A DNA stretch of 64,000 nt from Oscillospiraceae bacterium (lineage in GTDB: Bacteria > Bacillota > Clostridia > Oscillospirales > Ruminococcaceae): assembly GCA_017547245.1 (NCBI GenBank), contig JAFYQD010000003.1:62001-126000 (forward strand), in the 5' to 3' direction. The position numbers and the translations under genes are program-made. The notes under the pieces were generated by a model, which made no database searches, was not told the DNA's origin, and worked only from the letters and a program-made list of their open reading frames with translations. Positions 35,201-42,707 of this stretch are shown here, piece by piece (the first letter of the stretch is position 1; every line of letters starts with the position of its first letter).

Positions 35201-35421
35201 CCACACCCACAAAAAAGCACCCCCACAGGGATGCTTTTGTTTGGCGGAGGGTGTGGGATTGCGACTCGCTGCGCTCGCATGCATAACTTCGACCAGCCAA
35301 TCACCCTGCGCCTTTGGCTTGGGTTCTTGGGGTCTCACTTATCGAACCGGTGGGTTCTCACCCACACCCACAAAAAAGCACCCCCACAGGGATGCTTTTG
35401 TTTGGCGGAGGGTGTGGGATT
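35201..35421 (-). repeat. tRNA-Ser(TGA) tail-duplication element (E1)
   Basis: A 60-bp perfect direct repeat (35201-35260 and 35362-35421, period 161 bp) contains the tRNA 3' end, CCA and terminator. The copy at 35362-35421 belongs to the real tRNA; the other is an orphan 3' tail. The 101-nt core (35261-35361) begins, in the tRNA's direction, with a near-inverted copy of the tRNA T-arm (GGGTGTGGG then GAGAACCCAC). It therefore can pair with either tail. The core is related to that of E2 (69 of 83 aligned positions identical by my count). There is no ORF or transposase. Confidence 0.85.
35372..35399 (-). terminator. terminator of tRNA-Ser(TGA)
   Basis: AAAGCATCCC...GGGTGCTTTTTT hairpin on the minus strand directly after CCA; an identical copy sits at 35211-35238. 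Confidence 0.85.
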
Positions 35422-35491
35422 CGAACCCACGTGGGGTTGCCCCCAAACGGTTTTCAAGACCGCCTCGTTATGACCGCTTCGATAACCCTCC
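35403..35491 (-). tRNA. tRNA-Ser (anticodon TGA)
   Basis: 89 nt including encoded CCA. Acceptor GGAGGGT pairs with ACCCTCC, the anticodon loop CTTGAAA reads TGA, a long serine-type variable arm (GGGGGCAACCCC) is present, and the T-arm is GTGGGTTCGAATCCCAC. The discriminator is G, as in tRNA-Ser. Confidence 0.96.
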
Positions 35492-35503
35492 AAATACCCG
35501 AAT

Positions 35504-35533
35504 ATGATACCATATCGGAGTTGGCATAGTCAA
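35504..35533 (-). promoter_or_regulatory. promoter of tRNA-Ser(TGA)
   Basis: TTGACT (35533-35528) and TATCAT (35509-35504) on the minus strand, spacer 18 bp, just upstream of the tRNA. Confidence 0.75.
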
Positions 35534-35592
35534 GAAAAGCCGACTTACCCGACAAAAAAAGAGCAGATTTGAGCCTGCAGAACAAAGGCCTG

Positions 35593-35784
35593 TCAGTCTA
35601 TCAATCCGTATTCTTTGTACAAAGACAATATGCGGTTGTACATCAAACGGTTCCCCATATACTGCCGGTAGGTTGCGGTTTTTTCTTTACCTTCGGCCTT
35701 TAGTCTATCCATTATTGTTTTTTCATCATCATACCGCTTCAGAATATCCGCAGGCATTTTTTCAAAAGCTTCTATGCGTTCCAT
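35593..35784 (-). CDS. small conserved-looking protein, function unknown
   Basis: A 63-residue charged, helical protein (MERIEAFEKMPADILKRYDD...) with no membrane segment. The ATG at 35784 follows AAGGAGA; the longer frame upstream overlaps galE and lacks a site. The good ribosome binding site and ordinary composition suggest a real gene. I do not recognise the family. Confidence 0.6.
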   Translation of the reverse strand: MERIEAFEKMPADILKRYDDEKTIMDRLKAEGKEKTATYRQYMGNRLMYNRILSLYKEYGLID

Positions 35785-35965
35785 ACGATTCTCCTTAACA
35801 ATACGGTTGTTTGTCAAATTCATTCTTCCAACAGGCACACCACATTTCAACAGACAAGGAAGGAAAGGCGGATTTGCAGCAGCCCAAAACAATAAGAGCT
35901 GCATAAGTTGGTTGAAAGCGGGCAGTTTCAATGGTAAAATGAGAAAAAAGACGGGAGGGAAAGGC

Positions 35966-36970
35966 ATGAACATTCTGGTGACCGGCGGTGCCGGATACAT
36001 TGGCAGCCACACCTGCGTAGAATTGCTGCAGGCAGGCCACAAGGTGATCATTGCAGATAATTTTTCCAACTCGAAATCGCAGGTGCTGCAGGCCATTGAG
36101 GCCATCACTGGCAAAAAGCCTGTTTTTTATCAGATAGACGTGGCCGACTATAAGGCGCTGAAGCAGCTGTTTTGTGAAAATGATATTGACGGAGCAATCC
36201 ATTTTGCAGGATATAAAGCGGTGGGAGAATCGGTGCAGAAACCGCTGAGTTATTATCAGAATAATTTTTGCACAGCGCTTACCCTTGCACAGGTCATGCA
36301 GGAAGAAGGGGTTTTCCGTCTGGTGTTTTCTTCTTCGGCCACGGTTTATGGCATCGATAATCCCATCCCCTATAAAGAAGAATACCCCACCGGAGCGGTC
36401 AACCCTTATGGACGCACCAAGGTGATGATTGAACAGATGCTGACCGATCTGGCGGCATCGGACCGTCGCTGGAGCATTGCACTGCTGCGCTATTTCAACC
36501 CCATTGGCGCCCACCCCAGCGGTCTGCTGGGCGAGGATCCCAACGGTATCCCCAACAACCTGCTGCCCTATATCGCAAAGGTGGCGGCAGGTCAGCTGCC
36601 CCACCTTAATGTGTTTGGCGATGATTATGACACCCGTGACGGCACAGGCGTGCGTGATTACCTGCATGTGGTCGACCTGGCCGAAGGTCATCTGGCCGCC
36701 ATGGATTACATGATGGAACACAATGGCGTGGAAGCGGTCAACCTGGGCACAGGGCAGGGCAGCAGCGTTATTGAGGTGCTGCATGCCTTTGAACAGGCCT
36801 GCGGCAAACAACTGCCCTATCAGATTGCCCCCCGACGCCCCGGTGACATCGGCGAATATTATGCCCACCCGGGCAAGGCCGAGCGGCTGTTTGGCTGGAA
36901 GGCCAAACGCAGCCTGCAGCAGATGTGTGCCGATAGCTGGCGCTATACCTGCAGACAGAATAACCTTTAA
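35966..36970 (+). CDS. galE: UDP-glucose 4-epimerase
   Basis: A 334-residue short-chain dehydrogenase-type enzyme that interconverts UDP-glucose and UDP-galactose. The NAD-binding start is MNILVTGGAGYIGSHT; the catalytic YxxxK is in NPYGRTK, and the serine/threonine is in SSSATVYG. The ATG at 35966 follows GGGAGGG; the longer frame lacks a site. No other Leloir genes are adjacent. It supplies UDP-galactose for cell-surface sugars or galactose use. Confidence 0.94.
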   Translation: MNILVTGGAGYIGSHTCVELLQAGHKVIIADNFSNSKSQVLQAIEAITGKKPVFYQIDVADYKALKQLFCENDIDGAIHFAGYKAVGESVQKPLSYYQNNFCTALTLAQVMQEEGVFRLVFSSSATVYGIDNPIPYKEEYPTGAVNPYGRTKVMIEQMLTDLAASDRRWSIALLRYFNPIGAHPSGLLGEDPNGIPNNLLPYIAKVAAGQLPHLNVFGDDYDTRDGTGVRDYLHVVDLAEGHLAAMDYMMEHNGVEAVNLGTGQGSSVIEVLHAFEQACGKQLPYQIAPRRPGDIGEYYAHPGKAERLFGWKAKRSLQQMCADSWRYTCRQNNL

Positions 36971-36985
36971 GAAAGGAAGAACAGA

Positions 36986-37258
36986 ATGAATCCCGGTATT
37001 GTTTTGATTGGTGGAATACTGTTGATATTGCTTGCCGCAGCCCTGTTGTTGGGTCTGCAGATATGGTTGGCCGGCAAAAAGAAGATGCTGCCGGGGTTGA
37101 TTCAGCCCGGGGTGTGGTGCCTGTTTGCGGTGATAAGCAATCTGCTGCCCCGCATGGACGGCACTGCCGTACAAAGCGGAGTAAGCGGCATAGGTGCCAT
37201 TGTAATGGCGGTGCTGAGTTTGATTGTGTTTTTGTTTGCACGTAGTAGGCTGAAATAA
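36986..37258 (+). CDS. small membrane protein of unknown function
   Basis: A 90-residue protein with three hydrophobic segments (about 4-27, 40-54 and 66-85), short loops and a basic end. It starts 15 bp after galE with AAAGGAAG, so it is cotranscribed. I recognise no family. Confidence 0.6.
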   Translation: MNPGIVLIGGILLILLAAALLLGLQIWLAGKKKMLPGLIQPGVWCLFAVISNLLPRMDGTAVQSGVSGIGAIVMAVLSLIVFLFARSRLK

Positions 37259-37307
37259 CTAACTGTAATAATAGTTGCAAATTATACAAAATATGACAAA
37301 CAGAAAA

Positions 37308-37337
37308 CCCCGTTCCGACAAGGAACGGGGCCTTTTT
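37308..37337. terminator. bidirectional terminator between galE operon and hflX
   Basis: CCCCGTTCC/GGAACGGGG stem (37308-37316 with 37322-37330) followed by CCTTTTTG, with an A-rich left flank for the minus strand. Confidence 0.8.
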
Positions 37338-37395
37338 GTAATGTCTATAAATACCAAACGTATAACTCATCTAGGATTATACAAAAATCGACCTT

Positions 37396-38649
37396 TTAGG
37401 GATTGCGCTGGACATAGTCGGCCACACGGTGCAGCTCTTTACTGCTTACCAATGCATCCAGCAGGATGCCGTCCTCGGTATATTCACGGCTGAAGATTTT
37501 GCCGCCGGTTTCCACAATGTGATTTTCCAATCCGCCCTGTGCATAGGGCAGCAGCAGGGTCAAACGCTGCTGGGTGGGGGGAAGCAGACGGCAGATGCTT
37601 TGCAGCAAGTTGTCGATGCCATAGCCTGTGCGTGCTGAAATCAGCACACTGTTGCGGCCAAGGTCCAGCGGTTCGTAGGCCAGCTTGTCGCACTTGTTCA
37701 GTACGGTAAGCACGGGGATGTGGTCGGCCTTCAGGTCTTTCAGCAGCTGGGCGGTCACCTGCAGGTGAGCCTCGGCCTCGGGGGAGGAAATATCGCAGAC
37801 ATTCAGCAGCAGGTCGGCCTGTGCGGCTTCTTCCAGTGTGGACTTAAAGGCTTCTACCAGATGGTGGGGCAGGCGGCGCACCAGACCAACGGTATCCACC
37901 AGCACCACGGTGCGGCCATCGGGCAGCTCCAGGGCACGGGCGGTGGGGTCAAGGGTGGCAAACAGCTTGTCTTCCGAAAGAACACCTGCGTCGGTAAGGC
38001 GGTTGAGCAGGGTGGATTTGCCCACATTGGTATAGCCCACAATGGCCACCGTAACAGCGCCGTCTTTTTTGCGGCGGGTGTGCACCAGCTCGCGGCGTTT
38101 GGCCAAAGTTTCCAGCTGGCGTTCCAGCGAGGTGATGCGGCTGCGTATGTGCCGGCGGTCGCTTTCCAGTTTGGTTTCGCCGGGGCCACGGGTGCCTATG
38201 CCGCCGCCCAAACGGGAAAGACTGGTGCCCAAACCGGCCAGACGGGGCAGGCGGTAACGCTGCTGGGCCAGCTCAACCTGCAGGCGGCCTTCGCTGGTGG
38301 TGGCGCGCTGGGCAAAAATATCAAGAATCAAAGTGGTGCGGTCAATTACATCACAGTCGCAGGCTTTTTCTATGTTACGCAGCTGGCTGGCGGTCAGCTC
38401 GTGGTCAAAGATGATTAGGTTGGCGCCGTCGGCCTTAATAAACTCGGCCATTTCTTCCAGACGGCCTGCGCCGATGCAGGTGGCAGGGTCAAAGGATTCG
38501 CGGCGCTGGGTAATCCGTGCAACCACCTCTGCGCCGGCCGAATAGGCCAGCTCGGCCAGTTCGTCCAGCGATTCTTCCACATCATATTCACCGGTATCTA
38601 CGGCCACAAGCAGCGCACGCTGTATGGCCTCCTGTTTGGTTTCGAACAT
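37396..38649 (-). CDS. hflX: GTPase HflX
   Basis: A 417-residue ribosome-associated GTPase that splits stalled 70S ribosomes in well-studied species. The N-terminal HflX domain contains CIGAGRLEEMAEFI and the glycine-rich RLGGGIGTRGPGETKLE. The G domain (about 200-365) has GYTNVGKST, DTVGLVRRLP and NKCDKL. It lies 17 bp after lexA on the minus strand and is probably cotranscribed, which would put it partly under LexA control (inference). Confidence 0.93.
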   Translation of the reverse strand: MFETKQEAIQRALLVAVDTGEYDVEESLDELAELAYSAGAEVVARITQRRESFDPATCIGAGRLEEMAEFIKADGANLIIFDHELTASQLRNIEKACDCDVIDRTTLILDIFAQRATTSEGRLQVELAQQRYRLPRLAGLGTSLSRLGGGIGTRGPGETKLESDRRHIRSRITSLERQLETLAKRRELVHTRRKKDGAVTVAIVGYTNVGKSTLLNRLTDAGVLSEDKLFATLDPTARALELPDGRTVVLVDTVGLVRRLPHHLVEAFKSTLEEAAQADLLLNVCDISSPEAEAHLQVTAQLLKDLKADHIPVLTVLNKCDKLAYEPLDLGRNSVLISARTGYGIDNLLQSICRLLPPTQQRLTLLLPYAQGGLENHIVETGGKIFSREYTEDGILLDALVSSKELHRVADYVQRNP

Positions 38650-38666
38650 AAAAGCTCCTTTGCGGA

Positions 38667-39257
38667 TCAGTCGTAGTGGCGCAGGCAGGATGCCACACGG
38701 CCAAGAATGCGTACCTCAGGAACGATGATGGGTTCCATGGTGTCGTTTTCGGGCTGCAGGCGATAGTGCCCGTTTTCCTTATAAAAACGTTTTACGGTTG
38801 CTTCTTCGTCAATCAGCGCAACCACAATCTGGCCGTTTTCGGCCGTTTCGGTTTTGCGCACCACAATGATGTCGCCATCCAGTATGCCGGCGTTGATCAT
38901 ACTTTCACCCTGAATGCGCAGGGCAAAAAAGTCATCGGGATTGCCGCTGCCGTGATAGGGTACCAGCTGGTCGGCCACATCTTCAAAGGCAAGGATGGGC
39001 TGGCCGGCGGTAACACGGCCCAGCAGGGGAACCATCAGCGTAGTCTGGCTGCCTGCCAGACGGATGGAACGATTGAGCCCCTCGCTGCGGGTGATAAAGC
39101 CCTGTGCTTCCAGCTCGCCCAGATAGCGGTGGACGGTGGAGGTGGATTTGATGTTCAGGGCGCTGCAGATTTCACGCACGGTGGGGGGCACCCCTTCGGC
39201 GGTGGAGCGGCGGATATAGGAAAGGATATCGGTGGCTTTTTTGTTGAGTTTTTTCAC
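38667..39257 (-). CDS. lexA: LexA repressor
   Basis: The SOS repressor, 196 residues. The winged HTH is N-terminal (about 1-65, VPPTVREICSALNIKSTSTVHRYL). The self-cleaving peptidase domain has Ala84-Gly85 as cleavage bond, Ser119 (GESMINAG) and Lys156 (ATVKRFY). All catalytic residues are intact. A LexA-type box overlaps its own promoter upstream, indicating autoregulation. hflX follows closely. Confidence 0.95.
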   Translation of the reverse strand: MKKLNKKATDILSYIRRSTAEGVPPTVREICSALNIKSTSTVHRYLGELEAQGFITRSEGLNRSIRLAGSQTTLMVPLLGRVTAGQPILAFEDVADQLVPYHGSGNPDDFFALRIQGESMINAGILDGDIIVVRKTETAENGQIVVALIDEEATVKRFYKENGHYRLQPENDTMEPIIVPEVRILGRVASCLRHYD

Positions 39258-39300
39258 AGCAGATGCCTCCGTTCTTTGACAGAATCATTTGTTCTTTTTT

Positions 39301-39329
39301 AGTATATCACAGCCGCCCCAAAGATGCAA
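39301..39329 (-). promoter_or_regulatory. sigma-A promoter of lexA
   Basis: TTGCAT (39329-39324) and TATACT (39306-39301) on the minus strand, spacer 17 bp; the -35 overlaps the LexA box. Confidence 0.75.
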
Positions 39330-39340
39330 ACATATGTTTT
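39327..39340. promoter_or_regulatory. LexA box (SOS operator)
   Basis: CAAACATATGTTTT matches the Gram-positive SOS operator CGAACRNRYGTTYG at 12 of 14 positions and overlaps the lexA -35. The rest of the gap to 39617 holds only the candidate small transcript below. Confidence 0.7.
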
Positions 39341-39474
39341 GATTTTCCTTGTATAGACGCATGGTTATGCCAATAATAGGGTTTTGCCTATGCCTTTTTG
39401 CCGACAGGGTTTTCTTTTACAAATCTTTGCAGGTTTATTCACAGGTCGTACACAATTTCATAATTTTGTAGGGG

Positions 39475-39592
39475 TATAATAAGAATGCAAAAGAGAGAAA
39501 AAGACAAATTCCGTTTCAAAATAATTACCCCCCTCCTTAATCCATCTCAAACAAAAAGCACGGGCATCCGAAAGGATGCCCGTGTTTTTTTG
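39475..39592 (+). ncRNA. candidate small RNA with anti-Shine-Dalgarno motif
   Basis: TATAAT at 39475-39480 (no good -35), then about 105 nt ending in a strong hairpin (39558-39569 with 39574-39585) and a T-run. The middle contains ACCCCCCTCCTTAA (from about 39528), complementary to AAGGAGGGG ribosome binding sites. A 71-codon frame begins at 39485, but it runs through the terminator and has no ribosome binding site. This is a hypothesis only. Confidence 0.35.
39551..39592. terminator. bidirectional terminator upstream of 39618 gene stop
   Basis: 12-bp stem GCACGGGCATCC/GGATGCCCGTGT with A-run left and T-run right; on the minus strand it ends the 39618-39959 gene. Confidence 0.85.
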
Positions 39593-39617
39593 TATTATGA
39601 ACAGACGGGGATTGTCA

Positions 39618-39959
39618 TTACGGTTCTTTCGGTTCAAAGAAGACCCACTCGTGTTCCACCAGAACAGCCAACCCCGATTTCCCGCCCAATCCGTTGGTGA
39701 TTTTGGCATAGTCTGCGCCAAGGCAGTCAAAGTTGGCCTGACCGTTTTGGTCGGGGGTAAGGTGCGGTTCAATAACTTCTTCAATGCTGCCCAGAATGGC
39801 CTCGGGGGCAATCTCGACCGGCAGGGCCTGTTGGCTGGAGACAAAAATTCGATCCTCAACAAACACCATGTTGGCATGTTGATGCTTTGGGCGGTTGATG
39901 CGCACAGCTGCCAGCACCATGACCACAATGGCAAGGATCAATATCAAGATGCGTTTCAT
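39618..39959 (-). CDS. membrane-anchored or secreted protein of unknown function
   Basis: A 113-residue protein with a hydrophobic N-terminus (about 4-19) that is a signal or anchor, followed by a small extracytoplasmic domain. A good AAGGAGG precedes the ATG. There is no lipobox cysteine. I do not recognise the family. Confidence 0.6.
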   Translation of the reverse strand: MKRILILILAIVVMVLAAVRINRPKHQHANMVFVEDRIFVSSQQALPVEIAPEAILGSIEEVIEPHLTPDQNGQANFDCLGADYAKITNGLGGKSGLAVLVEHEWVFFEPKEP

Positions 39960-40141
39960 TCGTGTTCCTCCTTTGCGGCCTTTGGTTTTATTTTAGCATT
40001 GCGAAAGAAAACAGGCAACAATCAAAATACCGTATGTCCGTTTTACAAGCTTTTTACAAACAACTGACCCAACTGTGGCAGCAGCCTTTGTGATGTATTG
40101 ATAGAATGAAAGAGTAAAAAGCGGAAAGGCGGAATTTGAAC

Positions 40142-41884
40142 ATGAGTATTTTTGATCTTCTTTCGTTAATTGGCGGCCTGTGCCTGTTCCTGTTTGGCAT
40201 GAGTGTGATGGGCAATGCCTTGGAACGCCGCGCCGGCAGCAAACTGCAGGGTCTGCTGAGCAAGCTGACCACAGGAAAACTTGCCGGGCTGCTGACCGGT
40301 TTGGGTGTTACCGCAATCATACAAAGTTCCTCGGCCACCACGGTAATGGTTGTGGGCTTTGTTAACTCCGGTCTGATGACCCTTAAGCAGGCCATCAACG
40401 TGATTATGGGTGCCAACATAGGCACCACCGTTACCGCCTGGATTTTAAGCCTGAGCGGCATTGAGGGGGATGCCCTGTGGCTCAAACTGTTGAAACCCGC
40501 ATCCTTTACCCCTGTGCTGGCGCTGATTGGTATCGTGCTGTTTATGTTCTGCAAAGGCGACAGAAAAAAGGACAGCGGCACCATTCTGCTGGGGTTTGCC
40601 GTGCTGATGTTTGGCATGGACACCATGAGCGATGCCGTTGGCGGTCTGGCAGATGTGCCTGAATTCCAGCAGATTTTCCTGATGTTCACCAATCCTATTC
40701 TGGGCGTGCTGGCAGGTGCTGTGGTCACAGCCATCATTCAGTCCAGCTCGGCTTCGGTTGGTATTCTGCAGGCTTTGTCGGCCACAGGTCAGGTCAGTTA
40801 CGGCGCTGCCGTTCCCATCATTATGGGCCAGAACATCGGCACCTGCATCACCGCCATACTTTCTTCTTTTGGCACCAACCGCAATGCCAAACGTGCCGCC
40901 TATGTTCATCTTTCCTTCAACATCATCGGTACTGTTGTGTGGCTTGGCGTTTTCAGTCTGGTAAAAACGGTATTTGCCCCGGCTGTTTTGAATCAAGCGG
41001 CAGGACTTTCGGGCATTGCCACCTGTCACTCAATCTTTAACATTGCATGTACGGTTCTTCTGCTGCCCCTTTCGGGCTTGCTGGAAAAGCTGGCCTATAA
41101 GCTGGTACCCGAAACCACAACCCCCGATGTTGTGGCCGAACTGGACGAACATCTGATGACCATTCCTGCCGTTGCGCTGGAACGCTGCCATGACCTTGCT
41201 TCCGATATGGCTCTGGACGCCATGAACGCCATGAAGGATGCAATGGACTGCCTGAAGGAATACAGCATGACTTTGGTGGAGTCGGTGCATGAAAAGGAAA
41301 GCAAGACCGACCACTACGAGGATATTATGAGTACCTATCTGGTCAAACTGAGCGCCATGCAGCTTAGCGACCACGACAGCGCCGAGGCTGCCAAACTGCT
41401 GAAGGTGATCGGTGACCTGGAGCGTGTGGCCGACCACGCCGACAATATTCTGGATTCGGCCGAAGAAATGCAGAACAAAAATGTTACCTTTTCCGATTCG
41501 GCCATCCGTGAACTGGATAATCTGATTGCTGCCACCAACGAAATTGTGGACATCAGTTTTGCTGCCTTTGTGGGCAACAACCTGCAGCTGGCACATAAGG
41601 TTGAGGCCCTGGAGCAGGTGATCGACCGCCTGAAGGATATGATGCGTACCAACCATATCCTGCGACTGCAGCAGGGAACCTGCAGCATTGAAACCGGGTT
41701 TATCTGGTCGGATATTTTGACCAATCTGGAGCGTGTTTCCGACCATTGCTCCAACATTGCGGGACACATGATGGACGCTGCCGAAGAAACCATGAATATT
41801 CATCAGTCCATCCGCACCATGAAGGCCGAAAGCCCTGAATACAAAGAACAGTATGCCGAATATGCCGCCAGATACCTTGCCTGA
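40142..41884 (+). CDS. Na/Pi cotransporter family protein with PhoU-like domain
   Basis: A 580-residue protein. The N-terminal membrane part (about 1-300) has the duplicated QSSSATT/QSSSASV repeats of NptA-type sodium-phosphate symporters (AIIQSSSATTVMVVGFVN; AIIQSSSASVGILQALS). The C-terminal cytoplasmic PhoU-like helical domain (about 340-560) likely senses phosphate status. I use the ATG at 40142, 9 nt after AAAGGCGG; the TTG at 40136 is too close to that site. It is a single-gene unit ending at the 41918-41949 terminator. Confidence 0.9.
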   Translation: MSIFDLLSLIGGLCLFLFGMSVMGNALERRAGSKLQGLLSKLTTGKLAGLLTGLGVTAIIQSSSATTVMVVGFVNSGLMTLKQAINVIMGANIGTTVTAWILSLSGIEGDALWLKLLKPASFTPVLALIGIVLFMFCKGDRKKDSGTILLGFAVLMFGMDTMSDAVGGLADVPEFQQIFLMFTNPILGVLAGAVVTAIIQSSSASVGILQALSATGQVSYGAAVPIIMGQNIGTCITAILSSFGTNRNAKRAAYVHLSFNIIGTVVWLGVFSLVKTVFAPAVLNQAAGLSGIATCHSIFNIACTVLLLPLSGLLEKLAYKLVPETTTPDVVAELDEHLMTIPAVALERCHDLASDMALDAMNAMKDAMDCLKEYSMTLVESVHEKESKTDHYEDIMSTYLVKLSAMQLSDHDSAEAAKLLKVIGDLERVADHADNILDSAEEMQNKNVTFSDSAIRELDNLIAATNEIVDISFAAFVGNNLQLAHKVEALEQVIDRLKDMMRTNHILRLQQGTCSIETGFIWSDILTNLERVSDHCSNIAGHMMDAAEETMNIHQSIRTMKAESPEYKEQYAEYAARYLA

Positions 41885-41917
41885 AGCGCAAAATAAAGTT
41901 TTGACGGAAAAGACTGA

Positions 41918-41949
41918 AAAACCCCCGTGCACAACGCATGGGGTTTTTT
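41918..41949 (+). terminator. terminator of Na/Pi transporter gene
   Basis: AAAACCCC-GTGC/GCAT-GGGGTTTT hairpin followed by TTTG. Confidence 0.8.
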
Positions 41950-41997
41950 GTTTGGAATATATTTATCTCGACTTGTGGAATTACCGCTCCGTTAAAA

Positions 41998-42226
41998 TTT
42001 AAAAGGAAAAAAGCCACCCGATTGGGTGGCTTTTGCTTGGCGCGCTTGAAGGGACAGCGATGCGCTTCGCGCCCATGCATAGCTTCGCCCAACCAATCGT
42101 CCTGCGCCTTTGGCTTGGACTCTTGGGGGCTCAGTTATCTCACCCCAAGGGGTTCTCGTCCCTTCAAGTTTAAAAGGAAAAAAGCCACCCGATTGGGTGG
42201 CTTTTGCTTGGCGCGCTTGAAGGGAC
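41998..42226 (-). repeat. tRNA-Arg(ACG) tail-duplication element (E2)
   Basis: A 58-bp perfect direct repeat (41998-42055 and 42169-42226, period 171 bp) contains the tRNA-Arg 3' end, CCA and terminator; the 42169-42226 copy belongs to the real tRNA. The 113-nt core (42056-42168) begins in the tRNA's direction with CTTGAAGGGACGAGAACCCC. This equals the reverse complement of the tRNA T-arm and acceptor at 18 of 20 positions. The rest of the core (42057-42139) is about 83% identical to E1 (35261-35343). No protein is encoded. Confidence 0.85.
42179..42206 (-). terminator. terminator of tRNA-Arg
   Basis: AAAGCCACCCAATCGGGTGGCTTTTTT on the minus strand, right after CCA; an identical copy lies at 42008-42035. 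Confidence 0.88.
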
Positions 42227-42285
42227 TCGAACCCCTGACCTACTGGTTCGTAGCCAGTCACTCTATCCAGCTGAGCTACAAGCGC
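42209..42285 (-). tRNA. tRNA-Arg (anticodon ACG)
   Basis: 77 nt with encoded CCA. Acceptor GCGCTTG pairs with CAAGCGC, the D-arm has AGCTGGATAGAG, and the anticodon loop CTACGAA reads ACG. TadA (51281) would convert A34 to inosine. The T-arm is GGGGTTCGAGTCCC. Confidence 0.96.
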
Positions 42286-42301
42286 ATTTGACAGCTTAGA
42301 T

Positions 42302-42330
42302 ATAATACCACACCAAAAAAGAATTGTCAA
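42302..42330 (-). promoter_or_regulatory. promoter of tRNA-Arg
   Basis: TTGACA (42330-42325) and TATTAT (42307-42302) on the minus strand, spacer 17 bp. Confidence 0.85.
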
Positions 42331-42359
42331 CTAAAAAATTGCATTTCTTTCAAAAAATA

Positions 42360-42389
42360 TTGACTATACATTACTTTGTCTGTTATAAT
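42360..42389 (+). promoter_or_regulatory. promoter of tRNA-Ser(CGA)
   Basis: TTGACT at 42360-42365 and TATAAT at 42384-42389, spacer 18 bp, about 30 bp before the tRNA. Confidence 0.85.
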
Positions 42390-42419
42390 AATCGATGTTC
42401 CTCGGAACAAGCCAAATAC

Positions 42420-42510
42420 GGAGATGTATCGAAGTGGTCGTAACGAGAACGACTCGAAATCGTTTTGTCTGGAGACAGGCACGTGGGTTCGAATCCCACC
42501 ATCTCCGCCA
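42420..42510 (+). tRNA. tRNA-Ser (anticodon CGA)
   Basis: 91 nt with encoded CCA. Acceptor GGAGATG pairs with CATCTCC, the anticodon loop CTCGAAA reads CGA, a long variable arm (GTCTGGAGACAGGC) is present, the T-arm is GTGGGTTCGAATCCCAC and the discriminator is G. Confidence 0.96.
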
Positions 42511-42707
42511 CAAGAAAACCGCCTTTCAGGGCGGTTTTTCTTTTTGCGGTGGGATTCGATAGTCTTAATCCAACAGTCCGGGGGACTGTTGGGCAGCAGC
42601 CGAAGGCTGACTGCAACCTCTATTTTTGCAGCGCAAAAATGATGCCCGTCGATATCCCACCATCTCCGCCACAAGAAAACCGCCTTTCAGGGCGGTTTTT
42701 CTTTTTG
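42493..42707 (+). repeat. tRNA-Ser(CGA) tail-duplication element (E3)
   Basis: A 54-bp perfect direct repeat (42493-42546 and 42654-42707, period 161 bp, the same as E1) contains the tRNA 3' tail, CCA and terminator. The 107-nt core (42547-42653) starts with GGTGGGATTCGA, the exact reverse complement of the tRNA T-arm bases 42489-42500. Its interior differs from E1 and E2. It contains CAACAGTCC/GGACTGTTG, CAGCC/GGCTG and TTTTTGC/GCAAAAA hairpins. Confidence 0.85.
42515..42545 (+). terminator. terminator of tRNA-Ser(CGA)
   Basis: AAAACCGCC...GGGCGGTTTTT hairpin after CCA; an identical copy is 161 bp downstream. Confidence 0.85.

Follow-up and report, generated by a model that had tools for sequence, protein, structure and literature searches.

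Candidate RtT-type non-coding RNAs downstream of tRNA genes in the genome of an Oscillospiraceae bacterium

The three tRNA genes found in a 64,000-nucleotide stretch of an Oscillospiraceae genome (the window; assembly GCA_017547245.1, contig JAFYQD010000003.1, positions 62,001 to 126,000) are each followed by a second copy of their own 3' tail and terminator, the two copies enclosing a short interior that opens with an inverted copy of the T-arm. We consider it probable that each unit is a tRNA-linked non-coding RNA of the RtT type, made by read-through, closed by pairing of the inverted T-arm (T') with the second tail (T2) and capped by this tRNA tail. The catalogued occurrences of RtT RNA (rttR, RF00391), on which there has been little work, are in enteric bacteria and their relatives. 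The layout has a named precedent in this RNA, although the initial annotation knew of no named family built in this way, and the sequences suggest that such units extend far more widely than RtT as catalogued.

Layout of the units in the window and the genome

Exactly three tRNA genes were predicted in the window by ARAGORN (Ser-TGA, Arg-ACG and Ser-CGA), and repeat analysis confirmed the perfect direct repeats of tail, CCA and terminator annotated at these genes, with lengths of 60, 58 and 54 bp and offsets of 161, 171 and 161 bp downstream, respectively. The gene of tRNA-Ser(TGA), which carries the first tail (T1), lies at 35403..35491 on the reverse strand and is followed on that strand by terminator 1 (35370..35402, from sequence and repeat analysis), by the unit of T', core and T2 (35242..35369, from folding and a match to covariance model R1; T2 at about 35260-35242) and by terminator 2 together with the initial bases of another T' (35201..35241, from sequence), where the 60-bp repeat ends. 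Also on the reverse strand, tRNA-Arg(ACG) with its T1 (42209..42285) precedes terminator 1 (42169..42208, same basis), a unit at 42038..42168 (from folding and a match to model R2; T2 at about 42056-42038) and terminator 2 (41998..42037, from sequence), which ends the 58-bp repeat. On the forward strand, tRNA-Ser(CGA) with its T1 (42420..42510) is followed by terminator 1 (42511..42546, again from sequence and repeat analysis), a unit at 42547..42671 (from folding and related cores at other tRNAs; T2 at about 42654-42671) and terminator 2 (42672..42707, from sequence), where the 54-bp repeat ends. As had been noticed, T' forms the start of each core at all three loci, with longest exact matches to the inverted T-arm of 9 nt (Ser-TGA), 11 nt (Arg-ACG) and 12 nt (Ser-CGA); at Ser-TGA and Arg-ACG the inverted copy covers almost the entire T-arm, and its loop is altered. 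A strong terminator precedes each of the three units, and between terminator 1 and T' there is no space for a separate promoter, which points to read-through of terminator 1 as the way in which the units would be transcribed.

The genome sequence is incomplete and yielded 31 tRNA genes, among which the proposed scan for a second tail returned a complete unit at eight, a unit truncated by a contig end at Pro-CGG, a degenerate unit at Ser-GGA and none at the other 21, three of which have fewer than 250 bases of sequence left downstream. The initial observation of units at three out of three tRNA genes is therefore valid within the window and not genome-wide. A single genome can have related cores at several tRNAs, their ends matched to the host tRNA in each case, and cores related to that of Ser-CGA sit behind other tRNAs in this genome and in genome G001. 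When the Ser-CGA stretch was searched against 41 genomes, alignments beyond query position 140 were confined to G000 and G001, except for one 29-base match in G019, and a spread of this core past the genus was not supported by that search; the other matches corresponded to the tRNA or its tail, and a few of these continued as far as the terminator or the beginning of T'.

RtT RNA as a named precedent

The tyrT/tyrV units of Escherichia coli K-12 have their parts in the same order as the window units, namely T1, a spacer, a T' formed by the inverted T-arm (loop GAGAA), core hairpins and a T2 ending in CCA, and the annotated 3' end of rttR is the second CCA. The E. coli units are arranged in tandem, with a copy number that varies among strains, and according to the RefSeq annotation RtT also occurs behind a tRNA-Ser gene, besides the tyrT/tyrV operon. 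Since the complete genome of E. coli K-12 MG1655 has the identical layout, the objection that the duplications could be an assembly artefact of the present genome fails. Like RtT, the window units are located 3' of a tRNA gene, end in a copy of the tail of their own tRNA and are predicted by folding to be closed by the inverted T-arm on the second tail, whereas they differ in scoring below the Rfam cut-off, in having a strong terminator in front and in occurring at many tRNAs per genome. The RF00391 model gave a weak match at Ser-TGA (35381-35242, reverse strand; 23.8 bits against a gathering threshold of 45), and when 8.1 kb were scanned at permissive thresholds no Rfam family other than tRNA attained its gathering score. 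The RF00391 threshold was passed by one of 20 unit-bearing loci (L139) and by none of 61 relatives.

Two covariance models, whose E-values rest on a short calibration, suggest a link of two of the three window units to RtT. Model R1, built from 22 enterobacterial units, matched the Ser-TGA unit in the window (35368-35242, 23.5 bits, E 3e-4; one weaker match, E 0.57, fell inside the tRNA), and this unit was its sole match in the whole genome up to E 1 (E 0.006). Model R2, built from six Coriobacteriia units, matched only Leu-CAA (4.9e-12), Leu-CAG (9.3e-7) and the window Arg unit (42164-42038, 28.9 bits, 5.2e-6) in the whole genome up to E 5, and gave weak matches on E. coli tyrT (E 0.0016 and 0.0067). 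The Ser-CGA unit was matched by neither R1 nor R2 in the window and genome scans, and its core type differs in this respect from the RtT-linked units; this lack of a match and the low RF00391 score at Ser-TGA speak against the link to RtT. As modelled, the covariance links join Bacillota, Coriobacteriia and Enterobacterales. TRIP1 repeats, which we take to be possibly tRNA-linked, were weighed as a relative and dropped.

In the literature searched, passages of PMC2965389 and PMC4986893 were the only ones to mention RtT, and the latter reports its release from the tRNA transcript in E. coli and Northern blot signals of RtT-family RNAs in A. pleuropneumoniae. No cross-phylum family of this layout is described in the titles and opening parts of abstracts searched, a scope outside which most subscription journals fall. 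The RNAs rrA, rrB and rrF are read-through sRNAs between the dual terminators of E. coli rRNA operons (PMC8144298); compared by description only, they differ from the units in that the start of the abstract mentions neither a tRNA-tail copy nor an inverted T-arm. Similarly, a passage of PMC5222698 (citing Lalaouna 2015) describes sRNA sponges that are 3' fragments of tRNA precursors in E. coli. Like the units, these derive from the 3' part of a tRNA transcript, but, again by description only, the passage includes neither a copied tail nor a closed, structured unit, and the two are not known to share any sequence.

Distribution, structure and preservation of the units

A search with the layout pattern returned 119 stretches on contigs titled with many phyla and, to judge from these sequences, units of a similar kind have a patchy distribution across many distant bacteria. 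The tRNAs in front of them, as named by ARAGORN, represent at least 12 amino-acid specificities, and a structured interior of near-constant length together with the inverted T-arm recurs across phyla. Within the order, the pattern matched 14 of 295 genomes, the window's own included, and its reversed control none; moreover, the 11 tail positions not fixed by the pattern were those of the upstream tRNA at all 11 sites in 109 of 120 rows from named genomes. Both results exclude chance, as argued initially from the three loci. Viral contigs contributed 19 pattern rows, of which 10 share 10 or 11 of the 11 free positions and carry a unit, and nine share five or fewer and represent neighbouring or chance tRNA tails. 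Among 50,697 phage records, seven matched the Ser-TGA stretch, all within its tRNA part.

Compensatory changes on both sides of predicted helices were observed in 8 of 19 pairs in one set and 12 of 17 in another, although part of the covariation in the T'-T2 stem arises from the way in which each copy tracks the tRNA. The tRNA-sense strand was more stable than its complement in 95 of 118 units, and it folded better in 43 of 52 core clusters (59 of 111 in a downstream control), the z-score form of this test being weaker (35 of 52). Differences in T2 are confined to 4 of 374 free sites, whereas the homologous spacers differ at 14.8% of sites. T' is less preserved, with a match past the fixed bases that is short in many rows. 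An inverted second copy of the 5' strand of the T-stem was present inside 28 of 118 units (4 of 118 in the control), and a direct second copy was weakly above control (20 versus 12 of 118).

Proposed mechanism and alternative explanations

In the proposed RtT-type RNA, T' would pair with T2 and close a small multi-hairpin molecule, and T2 would supply a tRNA-like 3' end in CCA that could be trimmed by tRNA 3' maturation, as annotated for E. coli rttR. Units would stand singly or in tandem, as T1-terminator-(T'-core-T2-terminator)n, in arrays that may expand, contract and swap terminators through recombination, a T1-T2 deletion making T2 the working tail; the identity of T2 with the tail of its own tRNA may be due to such deletions, to a need of the RNA for that end, or to both. 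In this organism the RNA would be expressed by read-through and processed at its second CCA, and the units may have a regulatory role, possibly through exchange of T' between T1 and T2. Points against an RNA are the strong terminator before each window unit and the fact that recombination alone could keep T2.

The initial annotation had offered a read-through RNA and a mobile element as its two options, and the former is now better supported, by the compensatory changes, the sense-strand folding and the annotated E. coli RNA. A minimal non-autonomous DNA element, whose insertion at tRNA tails would duplicate the tail and copy it inverted with an enzyme acting in trans, appears unlikely to us. 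It would account for the recurrence of related cores at several tRNAs within one genome, each with ends fitted to its tRNA, and for the filled and empty sites at one tRNA seen at E. coli tyrT (SK1144 versus K-12), at E. coli tRNA-Ser and at Pro-GGG (G000 versus G001). However, the empty sites fit deletion within an array equally well, the ends vary with the host tRNA and are not fixed, units of such length contain no gene and in particular no mobility gene was found inside one, and the fresh single insertion expected of such an element was not clearly found among the compared sites. The E. coli core is also rare on phages (1 of 50,697 records, a Salmonella contig record) and plasmids (27 of 72,556 records, some of them chromosome-sized), and the sense-strand bias indicates RNA. 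Direct repeats of the tRNA 3' end that finish at or just after CCA are likewise known as attL and attR of integrative elements at tRNA genes, and T1 and T2, which repeat the stretch from T-loop to CCA, might be such sites after an island or prophage lost its interior. The unit in 10 of the 19 viral-contig rows and an integrase gene adjoining the RtT array in one E. coli strain agree with this origin, yet the interior of the window units is about 160 bp long, non-coding, structured and without an integrase; random deletion scars are disfavoured because the structured, near-constant interior recurs across phyla with the inverted T-arm, and we regard this origin as highly improbable.

Folding raises a further alternative, in which T' would capture T1 of its own tRNA and inactivate or delay it, T2 competing for T', so that the unit would be an autoregulator of a single tRNA. 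In equilibrium folding of full transcripts, T1 was favoured over T2 as the partner of T' at each of the three units (expected pairs 7.7, 10.0 and 5.9 versus 0.5, 0.0 and 2.9), and the fold energy was lower by 7 to 14 kcal/mol than that of the separately folded parts taken together. Nevertheless, the tRNA folds first in transcription, most transcripts are lost at terminator 1 and do not extend to T', and T' is less well kept than T2, so this model is improbable in our judgement. It is conceivable, although we put it forward only tentatively, that the units form a bacteria-wide class of tRNA-gene-specific RNAs combining a core shared within a lineage with reverse and forward copies of the T-arm and tail of their own tRNA. 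They would act as tRNA-specific sensors or switches through a shift of T' from T1 to T2 or back, and their ends would be built and refreshed by a process that re-copies the tail.

If the units are RtT-type RNAs, a neglected RNA of E. coli would belong to a wide and fast-evolving family, and its tRNA-specific ends would open its role to tests in a laboratory strain. Besides, tail duplications behind tRNA genes should then not by default be taken for scars of integration.

Units with a second tail behind the tRNA genes

All three tRNA genes in the window are followed by the same construction, which on the tRNA strand comprises the tRNA with its own tail (T1), an intrinsic terminator, an inverted copy of the T-arm (T'), a hairpin core, a second tail (T2, including discriminator and CCA) and a second terminator. 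The duplication of tail and terminator and the inverted T-arm that the initial annotation described at Ser-TGA, Arg-ACG and Ser-CGA were recovered, with direct repeats perfect over 60, 58 and 54 bp, respectively. From T' to T2 these units span 128, 131 and 125 nt in the same order, and their folds were predicted at -53.6, -56.8 and -56.6 kcal/mol (z-scores of -3.1, -3.4 and -5.7 against mononucleotide shuffles). The occurrence at three out of three tRNA genes holds for the window and not for the genome (an assembly of 1.23 Mb with completeness rated at 56%), in which T' and T2 are present at 8 of the 31 tRNA genes found, the other five being Gln-TTG, Thr-CGT, Leu-TAA, Leu-CAG and Leu-CAA. Compared with the tRNA's own tail over 19 bases, T2 has no or one mismatch in seven of these eight units and three in Leu-CAA. 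Pro-CGG is followed by T' and part of the core before the contig ends, Ser-GGA by a degenerate unit with T' and core and without T2, and no unit traces were found at 21 of the 31 genes, three of which have fewer than 250 bases remaining downstream. Behind tRNA-Ser-GGA of G001, a genome of the same genus, the stretch at about 1080-1526 of locus L072 resembles by eye the end of an integrase gene (putative), as opposed to the degenerate unit of the window's genome.

RtT as a named precedent

The initial annotation knew no named family with this layout; Escherichia coli K-12, however, carries units downstream of tyrT and tyrV with their parts in the same order, and its annotated ncRNA rttR (RtT, RF00391) has its 3' end at the CCA of T2. 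In strain SK1144 no units were found at tRNA-Tyr, the first tail joining directly to the stretch located after T2 in K-12. The E. coli core was found in 4,695 of 5,426 E. coli genomes, at 1-14 places per genome. RefSeq also annotates an RtT sRNA downstream of a tRNA-Ser gene, which we take to be serX, and among six such loci several units were present in two and none in four, two of which retain T'. In L235 (1-710, E. coli FWSEC0005), a tyrosine-type integrase gene is annotated near an array of RtT units at the tail of a tRNA-Ser gene, so that phage-type integration and the units use the same tail. RtT is reported to be tied to the stringent response (PMC2965389, PMC4986893), and two RtT RNAs are placed upstream of tRNA genes (PMC4986893), whereas the units described here lie downstream.

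The window's set remains below the Rfam RtT cut-off (23.8 vs 45 bits), which was passed by one of 20 unit-bearing loci scanned against all of Rfam. Relatedness was further assessed with two covariance models, R1 (built from 22 units of enterobacteria, located at tRNA genes for Tyr, Ser, Lys and Pro) and R2 (six Coriobacteriia units), whose E-values are rough because calibration was short. In the window, the Ser-TGA unit was the top match of R1 (E 3e-4), followed up to E 10 by a single weaker match (E 0.57) within the tRNA; genome-wide it was the sole match up to E 1 (E 0.006). In the same genome, R2 picked out Leu-CAA and Leu-CAG together with the Arg unit of the window and no other up to E 5; it also matched Clostridia units and, weakly, the E. 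coli tyrT units. The Ser-CGA unit was matched by neither model and is linked by its layout and by relatives downstream of other tRNAs in its genus. Among 80 of the at least 119 loci from the genome scan (enterobacteria and most Coriobacteriia left out), R2 gave 49 matches at 41 loci and R1 43 matches at 38 loci up to E 0.05, with 12 loci matched by both and 13 by neither; one R2 match (L142) sits apart from the unit located by the layout search. Since these loci were preselected by a pattern fixing parts of T' and T2, the matches provide support, not proof.

Distribution, upkeep and turnover

The layout pattern, which fixes T1 in part, eight T' positions and seven T2 positions, was found in 14 genomes out of 295 from the order and, in a phylum sample, in 4 out of 398 (both counts include the window's own genome); its reversed control matched none of the 295. 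Genomes of named species yielded at least 119 matching stretches. Titles among the listed matches include Coriobacteriia, Clostridia, several proteobacterial classes, Verrucomicrobia, Lentisphaerae, Chryseosolibacter (Bacteroidota), Saccharibacteria, Gracilibacteria, Fermentibacteria and one Thermoplasmatota, many records being MAGs in which misbinning is possible. Three matches (L098, L108, L183) share one contig of Kerfeldbacteria (candidate phyla), and two of these follow tRNAs for Glu and Trp. Seven viral contigs (L213, L214, L219, L220, L223, L224, L225) carry units with a near-identical Ser-type tail, with T1 not called as tRNA; they may be the ends of prophages in which a unit of the host is included. 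Among 118 listed matches, the T' loop reads GGATTCGA in 64 and GGATGAGA in 50.

Across 120 listed matches, ARAGORN ended the tRNA at T1 in 114 and at T2 in none, and T2 equalled T1 at all eleven positions left free by the pattern in 109, at ten in 7, at nine in 2 and at eight in 2. The comparison of tails and spacers covered 117 units. In 34 of them the spacers following T1 and T2 are homologous with a divergence of 5% or more; in this set 14.8% of the aligned spacer positions are different, vs 4 of 374 free sites in T2. A further 40 units show no clear similarity between their spacers, and here T2 has differences at 11 of 440 sites. Two enterobacterial tRNA-Tyr loci (L107, L174) have cores identical save near the end and differ from each other at one acceptor base in T1 and T2 alike. 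Judged from these comparisons, T2 is maintained and follows the tRNA between species, which means either function or repeated recombination, the data fitting both.

Of 30 loci from Collinsella, 25 could be parsed as Glu-TTC, with T2 within three mismatches in 19, T2 with an extra base in one, a core without T2 in one, only T' or part of it in three and nothing in one; terminator variants trade places between the two terminator sites. Related cores (about 86-95% alike) lie behind Val-TAC or Gln-TTG in 19 of 20 further stretches, with ends matching those tRNAs (the CCA end being less exact for Gln-TTG), and the remaining stretch has no tRNA. Pro-GGG differs between two genomes of the window's genus: G001 carries a unit there, and G000 has an empty site whose terminator is similar to terminator 1. 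At the sequence level, these patterns show expansion, loss and core sharing, dynamics that do not cover the origin of the tRNA-matched ends. Isolated T' copies, some of them accompanied by the first core bases, often remain downstream (L069, after terminator 2; L233, L234, L284, L287), a pattern that would fit truncation or deletion of units. In L167, an upstream segment of about 104 bases (1-104) is a dispersed repeat that recurs at numerous sites across several genomes of Collinsella.

Evidence for an RNA on the tRNA strand

Changes on both sides affect 8 of 19 predicted pairs in the enterobacterial alignment and 12 of 17 in that of Coriobacteriia and relatives (48 sequences, 95.7% of cells paired, weak consensus energy), part of the latter falling in the T'-T2 stem, where changes track the tRNA. 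Of the two strands, the sense strand has the more stable fold in 95 of 118 units, and by core cluster in 43 of 52 (35 of 52 by shuffle-corrected z), compared to 59 of 111 control downstream flanks. By these measures, the units behave as RNA transcribed in the tRNA sense.

Equilibrium folding of the full transcripts pairs T' preferentially with T1 in all three window units, thus making it possible that T' acts as a switch on the tRNA itself, although the terminator and the folding of the tRNA during transcription speak against this as the default. The reading that we favor is that the units represent a putative RNA made by read-through, whose 3' end is of the tRNA type.
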